From assembly GCA_014381785.1 (NCBI GenBank), contig JACNKZ010000044.1, forward strand, positions 1-64,000: a DNA stretch of 64,000 bases, in the 5' to 3' direction. The translations under genes and the position numbers were made by a program. Within the stretch, counting starts at the first letter, position 1. The number at the start of each line of letters is the position of its first letter. This document shows, piece after piece, positions 7,617 to 40,779 of this stretch. The stretch comes from Kiritimatiellota bacterium. Its GTDB lineage: Bacteria > Verrucomicrobiota > Kiritimatiellia > Kiritimatiellales > Tichowtungiaceae. The notes beneath the pieces were generated by a model. It was not told the origin of the DNA and searched no databases. It worked only from the letters and a program-made list of their open reading frames with translations.

Positions 7617-7680
7617 ACAAAAGTCGACGCATCGGCACAGCAATTGCTACATATATCAACATCTGACACGGAGGTTGAAT

Positions 7681-11531: not shown

Positions 11532-12542
11532 ACTCTCCTGCACAGGATCAGGATAACGGTATTCTTTTCCCTGGTAGTTGGTCAAAAGAATGTCGGCACC
11601 ATCGCGACGCAGGATGGTATCGGGGTGCATGACAATTTTTCCGCCGCCGCCGGGCGCGTCGATGCAGAAGTTCGGTAACGCGAGTCCGCTCACCCTGCCC
11701 TGCAGTTCTTTCATCAAATCAAGCCCCTTTTGAACCGGCGTGCGGAAGCTCGACGAGCCGAGCACCGGATCGCACTGAAAGAGGTAGTACGGCTTCACCC
11801 GGTTTTGGAGCAGGCCGTAAAACAGATCCGCCAGCGTGTCGGCATCGTCATTAATTCCTTTCAGCAGAACCGTCTGACTGACCATCGGCACACCGGCGTC
11901 AGCGAGTGTGTCGAGCGCACGGACGGCTTCGTCCGTCAGTTCCGCCGGATGAATGAAGTGCAGCTGAAGCCAGATGCGATATTTCGCCAACATCGCCGCC
12001 AACTCCGGCGTGATGCGTTCTGGCATCACCGCTGGAATTTTTGAACCCAGCCGGATGTTTTTCACATGCCCGATTCCCCGAAGGTTGGAAAACAGATCCT
12101 CCAATTCGTCATCAGGAAGTGTTAACGGGTCACCGCCGGAGATCAGCACGTCGCGAATTTCGATGTGCGTTTCCAAATATTGGAAGCAGGCTGAGCCTGC
12201 ACCCTCATATTTTCCCAACCCTTGGAAGCAGGCTGAGCCTGCACCCTCGCTTTTTTCCAAACCTTGGAAACCGCCGCCGATCAACCGTCCGCGAGTGCAG
12301 TACTGGCAGTGGACGGCGCAGTCGAGGGTGGCAAGCAGCAGGACCTTATCGGGATAGGTGTGGATGAGTCCGCGGCACGGGCTGTGCTGTTCTTCCCCTA
12401 GCGGGTCAGTGAGCTCACCCGGCGCGGGGGTGCGATCATCGGACGGAAGCACCGTTCGGCGCAGGGGATGGCTCGGTCCGAGGGAATCGAGTAAATGCTT
12501 ATAATGCACCGGTAAAAACCAATTTTGGAGCTCGTGTGACAT
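11526..12542 (-). CDS. KamA-family radical SAM protein (EpmB / lysine 2,3-aminomutase-like)
   Basis: LLATLDCAVHCQYCTRGRLIGG radical SAM CxxxCxxC; DVLISGGDPLTLPDDEL; contains a repeat-derived insertion. Confidence 0.85.
   Translation of the reverse strand: MSHELQNWFLPVHYKHLLDSLGPSHPLRRTVLPSDDRTPAPGELTDPLGEEQHSPCRGLIHTYPDKVLLLATLDCAVHCQYCTRGRLIGGGFQGLEKSEGAGSACFQGLGKYEGAGSACFQYLETHIEIRDVLISGGDPLTLPDDELEDLFSNLRGIGHVKNIRLGSKIPAVMPERITPELAAMLAKYRIWLQLHFIHPAELTDEAVRALDTLADAGVPMVSQTVLLKGINDDADTLADLFYGLLQNRVKPYYLFQCDPVLGSSSFRTPVQKGLDLMKELQGRVSGLALPNFCIDAPGGGGKIVMHPDTILRRDGADILLTNYQGKEYRYPDPVQESF
12171..12269. repeat. Composite repeat: three TTCCAA-N3-TTGGAA palindromes separated by two identical GCAGGCTGAGCCTGCACCCTC units
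   Basis: 12171-12185, 12213-12227, 12255-12269 with 42-bp period; inter-palindromes at 12186-12200 and 12228-12242. Confidence 0.9.
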
Positions 12543-17294: not shown

Positions 17295-18275
17295 ATGGAA
17301 CAAGTGAAACAGGATGCCTCCGGGGCCATGGGCCCGGAGGCGGCGAGCCGCTCGGCTGAAGTGCCGGCGGTGGGTCGTAAACGCAGACATAGCGAGGCGT
17401 ACAAGCTTCGTATTCTTGAACAGGCCGATGCGTGTAAGCGCGGCGAACTTGGTGCCTTACTTCGGCGCGAAGGTCTGTATCATTCCACGATCATCAAATG
17501 GAAAACGTGGAGGGATACGATGGCTGACAAAGGGTTCACACCGGAACAGGACAAAAAGGCAATGCGTAATGAGCTGGCGAAACTCCAGCGCGAAAACAAG
17601 CGCTTAAAGCTGAAGGTTGAAGGTTGAGCGGCAAGACGCGATGCTTGAGCTCCAAAAAAAGCCTTTCGCATCTTGGACTTGATGCCCCCGGGCGACGGGA
17701 ACGGAGGGAAGAGCTGATGGCTGTTGCCCAACGCAATGAGGATGAGTTTACGGTCAAGGAGTTGTGCAGACTCTTGGGGATTAGTCGTTCAAGCTGGTAT
17801 CGCTCCCGAACACCAAAGGAGCCGGATCGGCGACGGCCTCCGCGAAAGCTCTCGGACGCTGAACGCGCCGGGGTGCTGAGCCTGCTCAATAGCGAGAAGT
17901 TCCAGGACGAAGCGGTTCCGAGCGTTCATGCCAAGCTGCTTGATGAGGGTAAATATCTCTGCTCGCAACGCACGATGTACCGCATTTTAAAGGCGGAGAA
18001 GCAGGTTCGGCAACGGCGGCATGAGCGGGAGCACCCCGTCTATCAGAAGCCGGAGCTTCTGGCGACCGGGCCCAATCAGGTCTGGAGCTGGGACATCACC
18101 AAGATTAAAGGGCCGAAGAGCTGGATCTTCTACGACCTGTATGTGGTCATCGATATTTTCAGCCGCTGTATCGTGTCGTGGTGTATTACAGAATATGAGT
18201 CCGGCGAGCAGGCGCGAGCCTTAATCGGCTCGGCCTGTGCGCGGCAAGGCATCGAACGCAACCAGCTGACAGACC
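17295..18275 (+). pseudogene. Degenerate IS3-family insertion sequence (orfA + truncated orfB)
   Basis: OrfA HTH and orfB HTH_21/rve motifs (GPNQVWSWDITKIKG, YDLYVVIDIFSRCIVSW). OrfA is stopped by a 7-bp AGGTTGA duplication; orfB similarity ends after NQLT. Confidence 0.75.
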
Positions 18276-18304
18276 AAAAACCTCCTCTTAACAAAACGCT
18301 AAGT

Positions 18305-18319
18305 TTCCACACATTGGAA
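18305..18319. repeat. Degenerate palindrome TTCCAC-ACA-TTGGAA
   Basis: Direct reading, at the truncated end of the IS. Confidence 0.7.
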
Positions 18320-18662
18320 CCTCTGCGTTTTTTGCGTTCTTTCGCGGCTAAAAATTGTCCCATCCGTGTTCATTCGTGGTTAAAAATATTTCTCCGTACG
18401 CAATGCGCGGGCAGACAGGCAGGATGCCTGTCCTACTTTTGGGAAAGTGCGCCATTTTGTCGCACAGGTTGGGGTGAGTGGGACAGACCGGGTCATAAAG
18501 TGCCGCATGTTGCGGTATAAATTTAAAACGAATATTTTATAAACTACTATCGATTAACAACTAACAACAACCAACCACTAAAGCGGCACGGGTCGTGCTA
18601 TTAGAAGGCGTAATTCGACCGAAATGCGTCGAAAACGGATTTATAAACGAAAGGAATAGAAA

Positions 18663-29089: not shown

Positions 29090-29254
29090 TTCTCTAAATT
29101 CCTTATCACTTGAGGTTTCCCCAAAGGCGCAGAGAGTAAACCACCCCGCCCGACGGGTCAAGCCACGGCGTGGATACAAGACAATCCATACACAATCTGC
29201 CAAATTACGTACTGGATCGAAAAAGAAATAAAAAATCCCGTCCGCCGGACAGGA

Positions 29255-29989
29255 TTATCTGCTGACTTGGAGACGGTAATATACACGGGAATTACCAGTC
29301 GGAAGTCCCAACTCAATCGTCTTTTTATGGTCTTCGGTCAGCCCTTCAGCGATGACCGTCCATTCGCTGGACAGAAGATCAGTACAGGCTTCAACCGCAT
29401 AAGTGCAGCCCGGCTGAGCATCCCAACTCACGTAGTCAATCGTCGGGTCGGAATTTTTAACGGAACCTTTACCGTGACTTGTAGTTAACTCTAAAACAAG
29501 AGAGGAAGCGGCGTCATCCGGATCTGTAAGGGCCAGAAGTTCGTCGCCGTTGGTCATTCCATCATTATCAGAATCTTCCAATGCCCATGCGCGCCAAGCC
29601 TTATATACCTTCCCCCAATTTAAAGACTCAAGCCTGTCAGACTCGACATGGGAAAGAACCTCTGTCAAAAAATCCGGGTTGTCGCTGAGCCAATTGATGA
29701 TCTCGTCAGCCTCATACTCACCTAGGTTTATGCCCGAAGCGAACTCTGGATTGCTCTTCACATTTGTCTTCAGGAACTGTTTAAGAGAGTCCGTGAGTGT
29801 TTTCTGTGTCGCCTGCTCAGAGTTTCCGGGCTGGCCCGCTGTATCAGATTTAGCTGTCCAGTTTCCTGCAGAATTCTGACTGTTTGTGTTCGCGCCAGTC
29901 GCCATTGAAACAGATGCCGTTGTCTGGAGCAGCAACGCGACGAGCGCCACTTTCCATTTTAACGATGAACTTTTTGTTAACTGTTTCAT
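29255..29989 (-). CDS. Exported protein, tandem paralog 1 (calcium-binding-like DxDNDGMTNGDE)
   Basis: Signal peptide MKQLTKSSSLKWKVALVALLLQTTASVSMA; DSDNDGMTNGDELLALTDPDD. Confidence 0.75.
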   Translation of the reverse strand: MKQLTKSSSLKWKVALVALLLQTTASVSMATGANTNSQNSAGNWTAKSDTAGQPGNSEQATQKTLTDSLKQFLKTNVKSNPEFASGINLGEYEADEIINWLSDNPDFLTEVLSHVESDRLESLNWGKVYKAWRAWALEDSDNDGMTNGDELLALTDPDDAASSLVLELTTSHGKGSVKNSDPTIDYVSWDAQPGCTYAVEACTDLLSSEWTVIAEGLTEDHKKTIELGLPTGNSRVYYRLQVSR

Positions 29990-30005
29990 TATGGTCCCAT
30001 AGAAA

Positions 30006-30020
30006 GCACGAGGTGTGCCA
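30006..30020 (-). promoter_or_regulatory. Sigma-54 (-24/-12) promoter-like motif, copy 1
   Basis: Minus strand TGGCACACCTCGTGC. Confidence 0.6.
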
Positions 30021-30229
30021 TCGCTTGAAAAACGGTTATTTCCTAAGGAAATGGCTGTTTTCAAAATCGGCCGGCTCGGCAGTGGCGGTAAAAAGTACAG
30101 GTGGCGCATTTCAACACAGTAAAAATTGCATGCCCGTTGCCGTTGATCTGCCGCATTACATTCAGTTAGCTAAATGATTGGAGGGGCAGATAAATGGAAA
30201 AAGTAAAAAAGCCCGTCCGCCGAACAGGA

Positions 30230-30928
30230 CTACCTGCTGACGTTGACACGGTAGTATGCACGGGATTTAGTTGCCGGAAGTTTCCACTCGATCACCTGAT
30301 CTCCGGTCAGCCCTTCAGCGAGGGTCGTCCATTCGCCGGACATAAGATCATCACAACCTTCAACCGCATAGGTGCAGCCGGACTGAGCATCCCAGCTCAA
30401 AAGGTCAGCCCCGTCGGTTTTGACTAATTTTAAGGTAACACTGGACGTGTTATCATCTGGATCCGTAAGCGCGAAAAGTTCGTCGCCATTGGTCATTCCA
30501 TCATTATCAGAATCCTCCAACGCCCATTCGCGCCATCCCTCATAGGCCTGCCACCAATCTAACGTATCAAGATTTCCAGATGCGACATGCGACAGAAACT
30601 CAGGTAGAAAATCCGGCTTGTTGCCAATCCAGTTGATTATCTCGTCAACCTCATACTCACCCAGATTGATACCCGAAGCGAATTCAGGATTATTGCGTAC
30701 GTTTTTATCCAGGAAGCGTTCAAGAGACTTCGCGATTGCTTTCCTTAGCGCCTGCTCAGAGTTTCCGGGCTGTCCCACTTTATCAGTTTGGGCTGTCCAG
30801 TTCTGTGCAGAGTTCAGAGTGTTGGTGTTGGCGCCAGCGGCCATTGAAACAGATGCCGTTGTCTGGAGCAGCAACGCGACGAGCGCCACTTTCCATTTTA
30901 ACGATGAACTTTTTGTTAACTGTTTCAT
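30230..30928 (-). CDS. Exported protein, tandem paralog 2
   Basis: Near-identical signal peptide and C-terminal domain to neighbours. Confidence 0.75.
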   Translation of the reverse strand: MKQLTKSSSLKWKVALVALLLQTTASVSMAAGANTNTLNSAQNWTAQTDKVGQPGNSEQALRKAIAKSLERFLDKNVRNNPEFASGINLGEYEVDEIINWIGNKPDFLPEFLSHVASGNLDTLDWWQAYEGWREWALEDSDNDGMTNGDELFALTDPDDNTSSVTLKLVKTDGADLLSWDAQSGCTYAVEGCDDLMSGEWTTLAEGLTGDQVIEWKLPATKSRAYYRVNVSR

Positions 30929-30944
30929 TATGGTCCCATAGAAA

Positions 30945-30959
30945 GCACGAGGTGTGCCA
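30945..30959 (-). promoter_or_regulatory. Sigma-54 promoter-like motif, copy 2
   Basis: Minus strand TGGCACACCTCGTGC. Confidence 0.6.
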
Positions 30960-31168
30960 TCGCTTGAAAAACGGTTATTTCCTAAGGAAATGGCTGTTTT
31001 CAAAATCGGCCGGCTCGGCAGTGGCGGTAAAAAGTACAGGTGGCGCATTTCAACACAGTAAAAATTGCATGCCCGTTGCCGTTGATCTGCCGCATTACAT
31101 TCAGTTAGCTAAATGATTGGAGGGGCAGATAAATGGAAAAAGTAAAAAAGCCCGTCCGCCGAACAGGA

Positions 31169-31903
31169 CTACCTGCTGACGTTGACACGGTAGTATGCAC
31201 GGGATTTAGTTGCCGGAAGTTTCCACTCGATCACCTGATCTCCGGTCAGCCCTTCAGCGAGGGTCGTCCATTCGCCGGACATAAGATCATCACAACCTTC
31301 AACCGCATAGGTGCAGCCGGACTGAGCATCCCAGCTCAAAAGGTCAGCCCCGTCGGTTTTGACTAATTTTAAGATGACACTGGACGTGTCATCAGCCGGA
31401 TCTGTAAGGGCCAGAAGTTCGTCGCCATTGGTCATTCCGTCGCCATCCGAATCTTCCAATGCCCATTCGCGCCATCCCTTATATACCGGCCACCAATCTA
31501 AAGACTCAAACTTGTCTAAAGACTCAAGCTTACCAGACACGACAATGGCAAGTAGCTCTGATAAAAAATCCGGCTTATTGCCGAGCCAATTGATGATCTC
31601 GTCAGTCTCATACTCACCTAGATTTATACCCGACGCGAACTCTGGATTGTTCCTCACGTCTGTATCCAGGAACTGTTCAATAGCCCTCGCTATTGCACTC
31701 TTTATGACCTGCTCAGAGTTTCCGGGCTGTCCTGCGTTATCTGAAGGAGAAGAAGAATCGTCTTGGGCTGCCCAGTTCTGTGCGGAATTCTGACTGGTTG
31801 TGTTGGCGCCAGCCGCCATTGAAACAGATGCCGTTGCATGAATCAGCAACGCTACTAGCGCCACTTTCCATTTTAACGATGAACTTTTTGTTAACTGTTT
31901 CAT
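31169..31903 (-). CDS. Exported protein, tandem paralog 3
   Basis: Same architecture; more diverged upstream region. Confidence 0.75.
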   Translation of the reverse strand: MKQLTKSSSLKWKVALVALLIHATASVSMAAGANTTSQNSAQNWAAQDDSSSPSDNAGQPGNSEQVIKSAIARAIEQFLDTDVRNNPEFASGINLGEYETDEIINWLGNKPDFLSELLAIVVSGKLESLDKFESLDWWPVYKGWREWALEDSDGDGMTNGDELLALTDPADDTSSVILKLVKTDGADLLSWDAQSGCTYAVEGCDDLMSGEWTTLAEGLTGDQVIEWKLPATKSRAYYRVNVSR

Positions 31904-31919
31904 TATGGGTCCACAGAGA

Positions 31920-31934
31920 GCACTAGGCGTGCCG
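31920..31934 (-). promoter_or_regulatory. Sigma-54 promoter-like motif, copy 3
   Basis: Minus strand CGGCACGCCTAGTGC; same GG-N10-GC spacing. Confidence 0.6.
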
Positions 31935-32108
31935 CTGGATAAAAACTGGGTAATTCATAAGGAAACAGCTACTTTCCAAATCGAACGCCTTGACGCTGAC
32001 AGTAAAAAATACTGACAACGTATTTTACACAGTAAAAATTGCATACCCGTTGCGGTTGATCTACTGTATTACCTACATTCAGTTGGCTACATGTTGGAGG
32101 GGCAGATA

Positions 32109-33452
32109 ATGAAAAAAGGAAAAATACTCGTTGTCGATGATGACCACCTCATCACCACTATGGTAGAAAAAGTACTCTCCGCTGCCGGAATGCACGTCGT
32201 TTCATGCGGCGATTGCGAAAGCGCACTGACAACGATTAATGAATCGTTCTCGGCCGTACTGATGGATCTAAGTCTGCCGCGGATGGATGGCATTCTGGGC
32301 ATTATGGCAATAAAGGATCAATTCCCAGACATGCCTTGTCTGGTTATCTCCGCTGAAGAGGATGTGCGCAGAGCGGTTGCCTCGATGAGTGCCGGCGCAA
32401 GCGACTATCTGCGAAAACCAATCGACCATGAAGAACTGGTCATGCGGGTCCATCACGCGATTGAAACCGTAAGGGCCAGTATTGAAAACCAAGTTTTCCG
32501 GAATTCAATGAATCAGTCCGATGCAGAAGAAAGCTGGATCGGGGTCTCACCGAAAAGCTTACATGTCCTGGAGAGAGCACGACAGATTGCCAACTCTGAC
32601 GCCACCGTACTCATCACGGGAGAGACCGGAACCGGCAAATCCCTCCTCGCCCGCTATATCCACTCGATCAGTGCCCTATCCGACAAACCGTTTGTGTCGG
32701 CCAGTATCGCCTCTCTTCCCGCCAACCTCATTGAATCCGAGCTGTTTGGTCATGAAAAAGGAGCCTTTACCGGTGCTGCCTGCGAGAAACCAGGGCGCGT
32801 TGAGATTGCCAAAGATGGAACGATTTTTATGGACGAAATCGGCGAGATGCCGCTTTCGCTTCAACCGAAAATCCTGCGAGTTCTTCAGGAGCGCGAATTC
32901 GAACGCGTCGGCGGCACCCAAACCCATAAAATGTCGGCACGTGTAATCGCCTGCACCAACCGCGACCTGCGCCGGATGTGTGAAACCGGCAGATTCCGTC
33001 AGGACCTGTACTTCCGAGTCAGCGTACTGCCGATCGAAATTCCGCCGTTACGTGAACGTCCGGATGATATCGAAGCGCTGATCGACCGCTTTATCGCACA
33101 CCTTTCAGCAAAAACCGGTCAGGGTAAATCACTGACCCCGGACGCGCGCAATGCGCTGCTTAAATATCATTGGCCGGGCAATGTGCGCGAGCTTCAAAAC
33201 GTGCTTGAGTGTGCATTCACACTTTCACCCGGAGCATCCATTCCGTCCAACCAACTCAACTTTCTGTTTGACTCTCCCGCCGAGATCGTTGCCTCCACAT
33301 CGCTGGCCGGCAGGACGTTGGCCGAAATTGAAAAGCTGGCAATCGAACAGACACTCGACTCGTGTGACGGCAACAAGGCCCATGCCGCCCGCACTCTTGG
33401 CATCAGCGAAAAAAGCATCTACAACAAAATGTCCCGGGCCGGATTGCGATAA
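32109..33452 (+). CDS. NtrC-family sigma-54-dependent response regulator
   Basis: Receiver (VVDDD, MDLSLPRMDG), AAA+ GETGTGKS and ESELFGHEKGAFTGA, C-terminal Fis-type HTH. Confidence 0.95.
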   Translation: MKKGKILVVDDDHLITTMVEKVLSAAGMHVVSCGDCESALTTINESFSAVLMDLSLPRMDGILGIMAIKDQFPDMPCLVISAEEDVRRAVASMSAGASDYLRKPIDHEELVMRVHHAIETVRASIENQVFRNSMNQSDAEESWIGVSPKSLHVLERARQIANSDATVLITGETGTGKSLLARYIHSISALSDKPFVSASIASLPANLIESELFGHEKGAFTGAACEKPGRVEIAKDGTIFMDEIGEMPLSLQPKILRVLQEREFERVGGTQTHKMSARVIACTNRDLRRMCETGRFRQDLYFRVSVLPIEIPPLRERPDDIEALIDRFIAHLSAKTGQGKSLTPDARNALLKYHWPGNVRELQNVLECAFTLSPGASIPSNQLNFLFDSPAEIVASTSLAGRTLAEIEKLAIEQTLDSCDGNKAHAARTLGISEKSIYNKMSRAGLR

Positions 33453-33470
33453 CCCCTCACGACTGCATAA

Positions 33471-33504
33471 AAAAGCGCCCTCCGAAATTTCGGAGAGCGC
33501 TTTT
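33471..33504 (+). terminator. Rho-independent terminator after the regulator
   Basis: AAAAGCGCCCTCCGAAATTTCGGAGAGCGCTTTT. Confidence 0.85.
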
Positions 33505-33510
33505 CGTGTT

Positions 33511-33703
33511 TTCCAAGGCTTGGAACCCTTAAGCGGGTGCAGCCTCAGCCTGCTTCTAACCATTTGGAAGAAACCTCTGAAAAACTTCCAACCATTGGAA
33601 AATATCTGCACGCGTCTATGCACTGGACAAAAAAGGCGCCCCGCCGAGGCGGAGCGCTTTCATATTTTCCAATGGTTGGAAGAATTTCTTCCAAACCTTG
33701 AAA
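33511..33703. repeat. Cluster of five TTCCAA-N3-TTGGAA family palindromes plus a GCAGCCTCAGCCTGC unit
   Basis: Palindromes at 33511-33525, 33554-33569 (variant), 33586-33600, 33667-33681, 33689-33703 (variant). Confidence 0.9.
33629..33661 (-). terminator. Terminator hairpin downstream of pckG
   Basis: Minus strand GAAAGCGCTCCGCCTCGGCGGGGCGCCTTTTTT. Confidence 0.7.
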
Positions 33704-35704: not shown

Positions 35705-36349
35705 TCAAACAACTTGAGATTTGCCATTACGTCGTAGAAGCCACGCGCCAAATCCGCCGAGACCGAAAAGAAGAATCGTGGCTGGCTCGGGAACAACAGT
35801 AAAACTTGATGAAATAAAATCCACACCGAAGCTTTCAAACACTCCTGACGCCGGATCCTCATTTCCACCAATGCCCACAATCCGAATTTCAGCAGAATTG
35901 TCAAATGATGACCAGTCTGTTCCCCAAACGAAAACCCCTGCATCCAAGGTCTCTCGGAAATCAACCATAGAACCATTGGACCACATTTCCACCCGGAAAA
36001 CATCCGGCCCATTACCACCACCTAGTACAGAAAACCAGATGCCATTCATTGTCATCGTGTTGTCCGAATTTCCATCCAAAAGAGAAAAGCTAAAATAATC
36101 TCCACTCTGATAACTATCCATCCAAAGAGTGTTCCAAGTATCTACATGAAATACATTGCCTGAAGATAGGTTAAGATCACTGACATAAGGTAGTCCAGAT
36201 GGAGCTGGTAATGTTCCTCCTGGCCCTGATAATTGGGGAGTTAGGGTTGCATCATAGCCAACATTAAATGTTTCCCCAAACAACAGGCCTGCAAAGAACA
36301 CAGTAAGAAACAGGGCGACTTTGACCGAAATCAATTGAAAGGTAACCAT
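35705..36349 (-). CDS. PEP-CTERM sorting-domain protein
   Basis: C-terminus VVPEPATILLFGLGGFGAWLLRRNGKSQ. Confidence 0.85.
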   Translation of the reverse strand: MVTFQLISVKVALFLTVFFAGLLFGETFNVGYDATLTPQLSGPGGTLPAPSGLPYVSDLNLSSGNVFHVDTWNTLWMDSYQSGDYFSFSLLDGNSDNTMTMNGIWFSVLGGGNGPDVFRVEMWSNGSMVDFRETLDAGVFVWGTDWSSFDNSAEIRIVGIGGNEDPASGVFESFGVDFISSSFTVVPEPATILLFGLGGFGAWLLRRNGKSQVV

Positions 36350-36353
36350 ATCA

Positions 36354-36941
36354 TTAAACTTCCTGTTGCTTTCGTTGGCGACGCAAAAGCCACGCGCCAA
36401 ACCCGCCAAGACCGAAAAGAAGAACTGTTGCTGGCTCGGGAACTTGCGTGTAAGTCCCTACTATAACGCCTCCACCCAATGCTGTAGCACTGTCAGACAC
36501 AACCAGTCCAGACGCAGTATACGTTAGAGAAACCCAACCGTAGTAATCATCGTTATCTGGAGAGTCCCAGCTATTATCTTCCCAATAGGCGAAATATTTA
36601 GTTTCATTCAGTGAAAAGTTTTGAATGCTAAAAGAGGGATCGATTCCATTGTTTGAAACTAAAGGTGTTTGGGAATTGGCATATTGAGGAGTAAATTCTA
36701 ATCCTTCAGATGCGGAATATAACCCATATTCATAAGCAATAAGATAATAGCTGAAATTATAAGTCCCTCCCCCCATGTCAGACACCTGAACACCTAGACC
36801 TCCTGTAGAAATAAGCATGTCCGAATCGGCATCCCAACTTATCAACTCTGCATCGGCAACAATTATATCGGCGATACATGAAGAAGAAAAGATTTTGAAG
36901 GTCAGTACCAAAAAACAAATAGCACATATTTTCCAGTTCAT
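36354..36941 (-). CDS. PEP-CTERM sorting-domain protein
   Basis: C-terminus QVPEPATVLLFGLGGFGAWLLRRQRKQ. Confidence 0.85.
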   Translation of the reverse strand: MNWKICAICFLVLTFKIFSSSCIADIIVADAELISWDADSDMLISTGGLGVQVSDMGGGTYNFSYYLIAYEYGLYSASEGLEFTPQYANSQTPLVSNNGIDPSFSIQNFSLNETKYFAYWEDNSWDSPDNDDYYGWVSLTYTASGLVVSDSATALGGGVIVGTYTQVPEPATVLLFGLGGFGAWLLRRQRKQQEV

Positions 36942-36972
36942 ATATTACCTCTCATAACTTTAGGTTTAGCCG

Positions 36973-39900
36973 TCAGCGCAAATTCAAAGGGATTTCATCA
37001 TAGATAGAAAGGTCTATCTCCGTCAGGGAATATCCCCCGTTCTGATTCATTACAGCATTGATTTCGCTTTTAAATGAAGTCAACGAAGAGCCGCTTCCTC
37101 CAAAACCTCCGACCCATAAAGTCAAAAGAATCGGCTCGCCATTTAGAATCACGAATCCTGGGTTTCCTGAATCACCGGAAATTAATCCCGATAAATCATA
37201 GAAATTTGTGCGAGCGCCATATTGAGGATACCGGAAGCTTGTGCTTGCCATTCCATACTCATTAAGAGTCCCAGCTCTATATAAGTCGTGAGTCAGCGCT
37301 TTTTCTTCCTGATCAAGACATAACCCTGGAATGTGGATGTCGATTTTTCCTAAATAATTAGTAAAGTTGTCAGGAAAAATCTTTACAAAACTGAATCGGT
37401 TTGTTGGCACATCCTCTTCAAATACTGCCACTGTTAGGTCTGCATGATTTGTGGCTATATGATGAATTGATTCAATAGTCGCAGTATATACACCATTGGT
37501 TTGATCTACAAAACGCACCTGACTCCCCGCGTCGACAATAAATGGATATGGAGTCCAGAGGTGGTTTACAAATATTGCATGTCTTGGACTGATTAGTGTT
37601 CCGGCACCTCGCTTGCCCATATCGTCATTCCAAGGGCTGCAACTTGTCAAATCAATGTCAGCCGCCCAACAGTTGGTATTTCTCAGATAAATACCAGAGG
37701 TGTGGTCTTGAGTTGAATAGATCAATATAGACTCTGACCGTTCTTTTCCCGCAATACGGCTATCCACAGCCTGCATGGCATCTGCGACGGCATAGTTGTT
37801 AGTGTTATAGCTTGCGGGATCAAACTGTAAACGATACTCCCACATGTTGTCGATCCAGTCATTGTCCGGATCAGCAAATGCATCTGATTTATTTGTCCAA
37901 CTAAGATTGTTTTTCTGTTCCCAGAAATCCACGATACCGTCTTGATCAAAATCACAGTTAGCTAATGACAGCTCTACTTCTACTTCAGTAACTATTCCAG
38001 TCACAGTCAACATCATGTCGGGCGTTGACAATTCACCGGTGTCGTGAAGCTGGTTGGTATTCATGTCGTTAAACAGATGAACCCAAAGCGGCCCGGCCTC
38101 ATCAACATGAATCTGAGCAAACTCAAATGCATTGGTAGACGTTACGTTGGTCGAGATCAGCACGTTGTCTCCGATTGGCCCGCTGGCGATAGATACACCA
38201 ACCGGGTCAGCAAACGACGTGTCGTTCGAAACAATCCCGGAAATTGTGACAATATAATCGGCCGCATCATTCGGATCGGTGCTGGCATAATATTCACTCC
38301 AATCATCAATACCGTCTCCATCGCGGTCTTTTACACTAAAATGGCATGTAACTATGCGGCCGGTGGCAACAACGTTTTGCTGATATAGCGGCTCGGAGCT
38401 GTCGGGGATTCCGTTCGTATTAAAATCACAAAACAGCTGAACCCACAGAGAATTTTGTTCATTGATTTCGTAGTCGGCAAACTCAAATTCGCCGGAGGCA
38501 ACATTGGTTGAGACAGTGGCATTCCAAACCATGGATGTATGCGAGCAGCAGGCAAACATTGAGACGTTGGTTGCGAGCAGGTTGGTCACGCTGCCGGTAA
38601 TCGTCAGCATGTAATTGAGCGCATTGGTTGCCGAGGTTCCGTCAGCCACTTCAGTCCCGTCAGGAATGGAATCGCCATCCGTATCTGCATTGTACATGTC
38701 GGTGAAGTAAACGGTGGCCTCTTCGAAATCGGACAGGCCGTCATGGTCGCTGTCGCCTGCACTGAAATTGCCGTATTCGTCGGCTCCGATATCTGGAGCC
38801 AGATCACGCTCCTGTCCTTCAAAGTCGTACCATGTCAACGTCGTTCCGGCATAATTCATACCCGGCGAGTTGGTTGTTTGGTGCGCACCAACAGAAGCCA
38901 GCATCGCATTGGTTATGTAGAGGTTGATTGCATAATCCGGCGGGAACCATGATGGGAATTTCGGCATAATCGAGTCCGACATTTGCACATCGTATTCGAC
39001 GCCGTTTTCTCTTCTGACAAAGCATTCCGCATTGGTTGCTGCAAATGATTCATCCCAGAGCGTATTGGCAATCTCTACCAAAATCGGATCAAGTGCTCCG
39101 CCAATATTGCCAGAGGTTGACTCGAACTGTATGCCATAGGAATAGGGTTGAGCCGAAAAGTTCTGGAATGTGCAGTTAACGATTTTCAGCGGCGAGCTAT
39201 CCACAGCATAAATTCCGCGCAAAGGTACGGATGCTCCCTGCGTTCCTCGAAAAACGCAGTTGTTGAAAATTACCGGATCAACATGGGCATGGCGACAGAA
39301 ACAACCGATGTTTACCTCGCTGGTGCCCAGCTCAAACGTTACACCGTCAAAGAAGGGAGCCGCACCCGGGCCTTCGAACGGGCGGCCATTCCCCAGCCAA
39401 AATCCGATCTGATATCGACTCGTCTCGTTCATTTCCAACCTCAGCCCGCGAATAATCGTTCGGTTGTCCTGCGCCTTGTCCAACATAAATGCCGCAGGGC
39501 CGTCAGCGTTCAAATTACCGGTATATTCAATGATGGACGTGCGATTTGTTCCCCAGCCATCTGACATGATCATAACAGGATGATCTGGAAAAAACAGTCC
39601 TGTATTGGTTCTTCCCCCGTATGAGCCTTCTGTCAGCTCAATCACAGAATATGCTTCGGAAGCGGCAAACGCTTCTTTGATTGATGCATAGGTATTGGTC
39701 GCAATAGTATTGGTCGGATTAACGTATATTTTTGTTACCGACTGGCTGTCGTTGGTTTGAGGATTCGTCCCGTGAAAATATTCATACACATTGGGCAGCA
39801 TATCGTGATCGGGATCGGCAATTTGGTCAGACAGAGAAATTGGGTTTAGGCCATTATTGATCTCCCATGCGTCCGGAATAAAATCGCCATCACTGTCTGC

Positions 39901-40779
39901 TTCATCAGGAGATGTTTTGTAAATATATATTTCTTGGGCGTCACAAATACCGTCAGAATCTGTATCAAGGTCCATATTCCCTGCGACAAAGAAACCTCTA
40001 ACAGCTGACGGAATATTCCACACCGCCGGATTAGTGCTCACCGGTTGCAAATTCTGAACCGCAACGGACCAATTGCTGGACGAAAGGCTGGGGATCGAAT
40101 AAATCTCCACTCGATTGGTAAATCCTTCGGGCGCATAAACCATCAATTGTGTGCCGTCTATTTGCAGCGTCAAGTTTTCCACAGTCAGCGGCGCTGACAT
40201 CGTCGTCATCACTGGAGCTATCAAGCTTAATGACTGTTGCGTAACGGCCAGATCCGATTCGAAAGAAGACTCATCCCGCAATTCTACATTCAGTAAGATC
40301 TGGCGAGGAGACAGCTCGCTGATCAAATAGTGATCCAGACTGTCGGTTTCGGAATATTCTTTGAATGACGGAGCTTTATACACGGCCAGTTCCTGAAAAT
40401 TTGTTGCGGAAGCAATGACAATTTCCTGATTCTGAAGATCTTCAAAAATCATCACCTGCATCGGCAAATTCTTGGCCAGTGTACTTTCCGATGAAACGTA
40501 CAGAACATCATCAGAGGCAACGCTCCATAGATTCTCCTGAAACGACCAGTCCTCATTTTGTATCATTGAAAAAATCTGTTCTGCAGACATAGAAAGAGGC
40601 AGAGGAGGAACTAAACTTCTTCTTTCAAGGTAGATATCCAACAAATCCTGAAACCCGGTTATTGTCTGGCAATCCACTACTTTGTCGATGGGTTCGAGGG
40701 TTGTTGCCGCCAACATTAAACACAGCAAACACCCAAAGAAAGAAAAGACGACGCTTCTTTTTATGTGAATATTTTTCAT
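36973..40779 (-). CDS. Large secreted multidomain protein: beta-helix-like region, TSP3/EF-type repeats, C-terminal trypsin-like domain
   Basis: DLDTDSDGICDAQEI, DSDHDGLSDFEE, DRDGDGIDDWSEYY repeats; C-terminal GTLISPRHAIFVNHL, HADLTVAVFEE, ISGDSGNPGFV. Confidence 0.7.
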   Translation of the reverse strand: MKNIHIKRSVVFSFFGCLLCLMLAATTLEPIDKVVDCQTITGFQDLLDIYLERRSLVPPLPLSMSAEQIFSMIQNEDWSFQENLWSVASDDVLYVSSESTLAKNLPMQVMIFEDLQNQEIVIASATNFQELAVYKAPSFKEYSETDSLDHYLISELSPRQILLNVELRDESSFESDLAVTQQSLSLIAPVMTTMSAPLTVENLTLQIDGTQLMVYAPEGFTNRVEIYSIPSLSSSNWSVAVQNLQPVSTNPAVWNIPSAVRGFFVAGNMDLDTDSDGICDAQEIYIYKTSPDEADSDGDFIPDAWEINNGLNPISLSDQIADPDHDMLPNVYEYFHGTNPQTNDSQSVTKIYVNPTNTIATNTYASIKEAFAASEAYSVIELTEGSYGGRTNTGLFFPDHPVMIMSDGWGTNRTSIIEYTGNLNADGPAAFMLDKAQDNRTIIRGLRLEMNETSRYQIGFWLGNGRPFEGPGAAPFFDGVTFELGTSEVNIGCFCRHAHVDPVIFNNCVFRGTQGASVPLRGIYAVDSSPLKIVNCTFQNFSAQPYSYGIQFESTSGNIGGALDPILVEIANTLWDESFAATNAECFVRRENGVEYDVQMSDSIMPKFPSWFPPDYAINLYITNAMLASVGAHQTTNSPGMNYAGTTLTWYDFEGQERDLAPDIGADEYGNFSAGDSDHDGLSDFEEATVYFTDMYNADTDGDSIPDGTEVADGTSATNALNYMLTITGSVTNLLATNVSMFACCSHTSMVWNATVSTNVASGEFEFADYEINEQNSLWVQLFCDFNTNGIPDSSEPLYQQNVVATGRIVTCHFSVKDRDGDGIDDWSEYYASTDPNDAADYIVTISGIVSNDTSFADPVGVSIASGPIGDNVLISTNVTSTNAFEFAQIHVDEAGPLWVHLFNDMNTNQLHDTGELSTPDMMLTVTGIVTEVEVELSLANCDFDQDGIVDFWEQKNNLSWTNKSDAFADPDNDWIDNMWEYRLQFDPASYNTNNYAVADAMQAVDSRIAGKERSESILIYSTQDHTSGIYLRNTNCWAADIDLTSCSPWNDDMGKRGAGTLISPRHAIFVNHLWTPYPFIVDAGSQVRFVDQTNGVYTATIESIHHIATNHADLTVAVFEEDVPTNRFSFVKIFPDNFTNYLGKIDIHIPGLCLDQEEKALTHDLYRAGTLNEYGMASTSFRYPQYGARTNFYDLSGLISGDSGNPGFVILNGEPILLTLWVGGFGGSGSSLTSFKSEINAVMNQNGGYSLTEIDLSIYDEIPLNLR

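Follow-up and report, generated by a model that had tools for sequence, protein, structure and literature searches.

How are three neighbouring genes for exported proteins switched on in a Kiritimatiellota bacterium, and is the divergently oriented gene for a sigma-54 activator beside them responsible? The three genes, here c1, c2 and c3, lie on the minus strand of a stretch of 64,000 nucleotides that was analysed as a whole (the window). A first-pass annotation of this DNA had proposed that each gene is preceded by a sigma-54 promoter and that the divergent regulator controls the array, and had warned that transcription would begin only about 5 nt before the ATG. Transcription from sigma-54 promoters is RpoN-dependent and starts 10–14 nt downstream of the GC, and the binding sites for activators at such promoters are located about 80–200 nt upstream. 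A literature search found no paper pairing Kiritimatiellota with sigma-54. Francke et al. 2011 (PMC3162934) have argued for a broad link of sigma-54 to the cell exterior; the sites described here, often before pilin, pilus assembly or exported-protein genes, are in keeping with it, although that work concerns general trends across genomes and not this arrangement or lineage. Here we investigate the array, its regulatory regions and the neighbouring regulator; their features are collected in Table 1.

Table 1. Features of the c1–c3 array and its neighbour (window positions)
Feature	Position	Strand	Remarks
Intrinsic terminator after c1	29234..29256	-
c1, exported protein, 244 aa	29255..29989	-	ORF; weak Pfam TSP3_bac match under cut-off
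Regulatory region of c1	29990..30176	-	homologous to G000:C37:2419-2598 before type IV pilin gene
Sigma-54 -24/-12 box of c1, TGGCACACCTCGTGC	30006..30020	-	predicted start ~29994, 5-nt leader
Palindrome ATTTCCTTAGGAAAT	30038..30052 (c1); 30977-30991 (c2); 31953-31965 (c3)	.	degenerate in c3
Exact direct repeat, 534 bp	29901..30434 (copy 1); 30840-31373 (copy 2)	.	spans an intergenic region and the adjoining gene ends
Intrinsic terminator after c2	30212-30228	-
c2, paralog, 232 aa	30230..30928	-	ORF and sequence comparison
Regulatory region of c2	30929..31115	-	identical to that of c1
Sigma-54 box of c2, TGGCACACCTCGTGC	30945..30959	-	same as that of c1; within the 534-bp repeat
Intrinsic terminator after c3	31151-31167	-
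c3, paralog nearest the regulator, 244 aa	31169..31903	-	ORF and sequence comparison
Regulatory region of c3	31904..32092	-	common to the divergent regulator
Sigma-54 box of c3, CGGCACGCCTAGTGC	31920..31934	-
Orphan response regulator / sigma-54 activator	32109..33452	+	receiver, AAA+ with GAFTGA, Fis-type HTH

Results and discussion

Three paralogs in a lineage-specific segment

The three paralogs noted in the first-pass annotation are present as open reading frames. Their first 20 residues are the same and they share one signal peptide (MKQLTKSSSLKWKVALVALL...); at the protein level c2 is 84% and c1 69% identical to c3. Behind its signal peptide c1 has a single TSP3-like Ca-binding motif and a C-terminal beta domain. 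There is just one DSDNDGMTNGDE-type TSP3-like motif in each of the proteins, which score 15.9–17.4 bits against TSP3_bac (PF18884), where the Pfam cut-off is 25 bits. The C-terminal region of about 95 residues, ending in ...YYRVNVSR or ...YYRLQVSR without a PEP-CTERM tail, is matched in 80 of 97 related genomes; outside this region those genomes contain no relative of the protein besides partial extensions of the C-terminal matches. In many proteins of the class the C-terminus, or the part close to it, consists of a TSP3-like motif and a beta domain that ends in F/YYRVxV (L006-L024, C-terminal ~95 aa), and this module may serve in sorting or anchoring. A structure model of c3 has a mean pLDDT of 65 overall, its N-terminal part being of low confidence, and a fold search with this model gave no PDB match at E < 0.001 and weak Ig/FN3-like matches only.

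An intrinsic terminator follows each gene, so that each looks like a separate transcription unit. No ortholog of the cluster of c1–c3 and regulator was found among the 97 relatives, which matched the C-terminal part and contained regulators of about 40% identity only. In the complete genome of a congener (G009), pckG and purA are adjacent with about 170 bp between them, and the 4.6-kb segment with c1–c3 and the regulator is absent; the segment has thus either been inserted in this lineage or lost in that of G009. Two genes for PEP-CTERM-like proteins and one for a 1268-aa TSP3-containing exported protein, between pckG and an MBL-fold gene (window 35705-40779, minus strand), are also missing from the corresponding place in G009. 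The PEP-CTERM-like proteins, taken with the overall make-up of the genome, would fit a Kiritimatiellota-like member of the PVC group.

The -24/-12 boxes

At c1, c2 and c3 alike, GG and GC are 10 nt apart in a TGGCAC...TGC context, and the gap from box to ATG is 16 nt. The boxes and their spacing are real, as first annotated, but they are not three independent observations of a retained motif: the boxes of c1 and c2 both lie inside the perfect 534-bp repeat and count once, and only that of c3 differs. The 15-mers of c1 and c3 are identical at 12 of 15 positions, a value that 45% of windows in the intergenic region equal or exceed. We therefore do not use the c1–c3 comparison alone as evidence, since box conservation is not above the regional average. 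The plain pattern TGGCAC-N6-TGC was likewise set aside, being at chance level in the genome (13 matches, against 13 in the control). The sigma-54 weight matrix applied in the box scan served as a rough guide only.

For the extended box TGGCAC-N6-TGCTTT the genome gave exactly four matches and the reversed control none, a count in which c1 and c2 are only partly independent of the TTT extension, as this was picked after the other two sites had been seen. Those two precede a pilin gene beside a PilR-like regulator (contig C18) and a gene for an exported protein (contig C8). Across 14 genomes of the genus, this one included, there are 16 matches compared with 5 in the control. Most of the 16 lie ahead of a pilin, PilB-like, exported-protein or other gene; among the matches in promoter position are pilin genes, PilB-like genes and one gene for an exported protein. 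The genome has a single rpoN, which contains the activator-interacting domain (Sigma54_AID, 46.1 bits; cut-off 23.8). Elsewhere in the window, sigma-54-like boxes stand 64 nt ahead of dnaK (18584-18601, plus strand) and some 500 nt ahead of a gene for a SulP-type transporter (7633-7648, plus strand); these may be chance matches. A two-ORF IS3-like transposase pair is located upstream of dnaK (17295-18520, plus strand).

A regulatory region shared with a pilin gene

A DNA search with the regulatory region of c1 (about 170 bp) found one more copy in the genome, on contig C37 (G000:C37:2420-2590), with 69% identity (E 6e-9). This copy precedes a type IV pilin gene, 66% identical to the C18 pilin. 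There are two tandem copies of the type IV pilin at this place (L205, 1990-3053), and the shared promoter is at the second; the first seems to have neither an in-frame start codon nor the shared promoter.

When the regions of c1, c3 and C37 are aligned, 11 of the 15 columns of the box are invariant; of the 37 flanking columns, 9 are (Fisher p 0.0015, a value from a small sample and for a window defined by the finding itself). Further islands of conservation are TTTAGCYAACTGAATG, AATTTTTACTGTG, GTAYTTTTTA and AGCYRTTTCCTTAGGAA. The conserved blocks sit at about -100 to -175; the first three, as they stand in the regulatory region of c1, are candidate activator sites. The core of the palindrome is kept at the C37 pilin promoter as well. 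Short palindromes of another kind, TTCCAA...TTGGAA, are seen repeatedly in the genus where terminators lie between genes (window 33470-33700; L165 ~11750-11850).

In the whole genome only four places match the composite TTTCCTTA-N(22-24)-GGCA-N7-TGC, namely c1, c2, c3 and C37, and a sequence model of the regulatory region recovers the same four with strong scores. As promoter samples go these are few, four copies of which two are identical; all four point into genes encoding pilins or exported proteins. In congeners the promoter model gave matches (best E 0.002) that were treated as chance, the top three being beside genes without a visible link to pili or secretion.

It is the extended box and the fourth regulatory region before a pilin gene that rescue the sigma-54 reading. 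Together with rpoN and the occurrence of the extended box at pilin and pilus genes of the genus, they support the original promoter call.

Which activator?

The gene beside the array does encode a sigma-54 activator, as had been annotated: its receiver, its GAFTGA-containing AAA+ (sigma-54 interaction) domain and its Fis-type HTH make up the plan of the NtrC family. There is no adjacent kinase gene. In domain order and GAFTGA the protein resembles activators of the NtrC/AtoC/ZraR type, but it falls far under every equivalog cut-off. Its best family matches are the models for AtoC (378.1 bits, cut-off 714), NtrC (377.9, cut-off 558.6) and PrsR (TIGR02915; 359.4, cut-off 502.6). The best relatives in the 97 genomes searched are only about 40–42% identical, and plasmids gave generic matches only, with less than 60% identity.

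Two known systems invite comparison. At PilR/RpoN-dependent pilA promoters the box likewise stands before pilin genes beside an activator with receiver, AAA+ and Fis-type domains, and the c1–c3 region is homologous to that of a pilin gene. Unlike the targets of PilR, however, c1–c3 are not type IV pilins, as they start with an ordinary signal peptide instead of a pilin N-terminus; in addition the activator lacks a neighbouring kinase gene, and a leader of only about 5 nt is predicted. The PrsK/PrsR-RpoN control of PEP-CTERM proteins (TIGR02915) is similar in that a sigma-54 activator adjoins genes for exported proteins, and PEP-CTERM-like proteins are encoded near the array (window 35705-36941). 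It differs in that the regulator here is under the PrsR cut-off and c1–c3 are without the PEP-CTERM tail.

Could a working sigma-54 promoter be served by another activator, such as the PilR-like protein of contig C18, while the divergent neighbour regulates itself alone or a different set of genes? A pilin gene is driven by the homologous region, the PilR-like regulator adjoins a sigma-54-type pilin promoter, and the genome has three or more further genes for strong sigma-54 activators and seven sigma-54 activator domains above 100 bits, all of which would fit. Yet the upstream blocks of C37 have no detectable counterpart at the C18 pilin promoter, which has the box in common, so c1–c3 and the C37 pilin probably share an activator other than that of the C18 pilin. 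Moreover, the neighbour belongs to the same inserted segment and its 5' region is part of the duplicated unit. We regard control by another activator as unlikely. That the divergent regulator controls the array, as first suggested, is plausible in view of their common lineage-specific segment, the divergent orientation and the conserved upstream blocks.

A very short predicted leader

The warning about the transcription start is borne out: the predicted leader is about 5 nt at c1–c3 (predicted starts about 29994, 30933 and 31908), compared with 82 nt at the homologous C37 pilin promoter (predicted start about base 2600 of C37). This is not fatal to the sigma-54 reading, since other sigma-54-type sites of the genus also lie close to the start codon. 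At two PilB-like genes of other congeners the GC is just 22–23 nt from the ATG, with predicted leaders of about 10–12 nt, and short leaders may be a habit of the genus. In sampled DNA, Shine-Dalgarno cores (AGGA, GGAG or GAGG) precede 47 of 130 start sites and 8 of 130 controls; no such core is present upstream of c1–c3. Because the signal peptide is conserved, inspection gives no good alternative start for these genes. A leader this short suggests direct fusion of a pilin-type promoter to a new ORF, with a nearly leaderless mRNA as the outcome. The type of switch is ordinary, and it is the very short predicted leader that is unusual.

A leader of normal length would result if the promoter of the c genes were elsewhere upstream and an operator were formed either by the GCAC-N5-GTGC dyad, as which the c1–c3 box can also be read, or by the TTTCCTTAGGAAA palindrome. 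The chance-level count of the plain sigma-54 pattern is compatible with this. However, the box at C37 (GGCATACCTCCTGC) lacks the dyad and keeps GG-N10-GC. Furthermore, a scan for -35/-10 elements gave no more promoter-like sites than shuffled sequence and none on the minus strand of these regions, and the extended box fits the pilin promoters of the genus. We consider an operator improbable.

Origin of the array

The 534-bp repeat takes in an intergenic region with its promoter, flanked by the 3' end of one gene and the 5' end of the next. The 5' end of c2 is that of c1, its 3' end is nearly identical to that of c3 and its middle is unlike either; a one-crossover hybrid of c1-like and c3-like genes was rejected, as it accounts for the ends and not for the middle. 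Between c1 and c2 the middles differ with dN 0.19 and dS of about 0.65, so the exact repeat beside them was probably homogenised by recent recombination; an assembly error could also lie behind it. Positive selection on the protein middles is unsupported overall, dN being near or over dS in short stretches only.

Ahead of c1 and c2 the intergenic DNA retains the old Shine-Dalgarno sequence and start codon of the regulator, which would place the beginning of the duplicated unit within the 5' end of the regulator. The remnant reads as a 77-aa ORF (window 30194-30427 and 31133-31366, plus strand), in antisense orientation over the ends of c2 and c3 (3' in both), where a duplicated regulator promoter could give rise to antisense RNA. 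Tandem duplication probably enlarged the array, in units that each extended from the regulator 5' end through the terminator of the target gene. Later recombination would have equalised the promoter and gene ends of adjacent copies as the middles diverged.

Is the repeated region of about 170 bp simply a leftover of this duplication, with no regulatory role and a box that matches by chance? The c1 and c2 copies being one recent repeat and the average conservation of the c1–c3 box would suit such an explanation, but the conservation islands of the three-way alignment, the extended box (4 against 0) and the orientation of all four regions into exported-protein or pilin genes make it very improbable.

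Conclusions

We put at roughly two-thirds the probability that c1–c3 are separate units driven by sigma-54, with the divergent regulator as their likely activator and a regulon in common with the C37 pilin. As read from the DNA, sigma-54 RNA polymerase would switch on each gene separately from its own GG-N10-GC box, 16 nt ahead of the ATG. The orphan regulator would act from the blocks about 100–175 nt upstream of the predicted start. The same regulatory region would drive the C37 type IV pilin gene, and the secreted proteins and this pilin would probably constitute one small cell-exterior regulon. The triplet was probably built by borrowing a pilus promoter. More tentatively, a lineage-specific gene for a secreted protein may have captured a sigma-54 pilin promoter and its enhancer region very close to the start codon, yielding near-leaderless, activator-gated mRNAs from a unit that was multiplied and homogenised while its middles diversified, with expression alongside the pilus; we think this fuller account possible, with the odds against it. 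If it is true, variable secreted proteins are co-expressed with a pilus subunit.

Nothing here is outside known kinds, and what is worth testing is the promoter in common with a pilin gene and the short leader. The near-leaderless prediction offers a sharp test of the minimum leader for a sigma-54 transcript, and the extended box provides a sequence-derived sigma-54-type consensus for a genus. The array is also a compact case, open to testing, of the way in which new secreted proteins may enter a pilus regulon that already exists, via a borrowed promoter.
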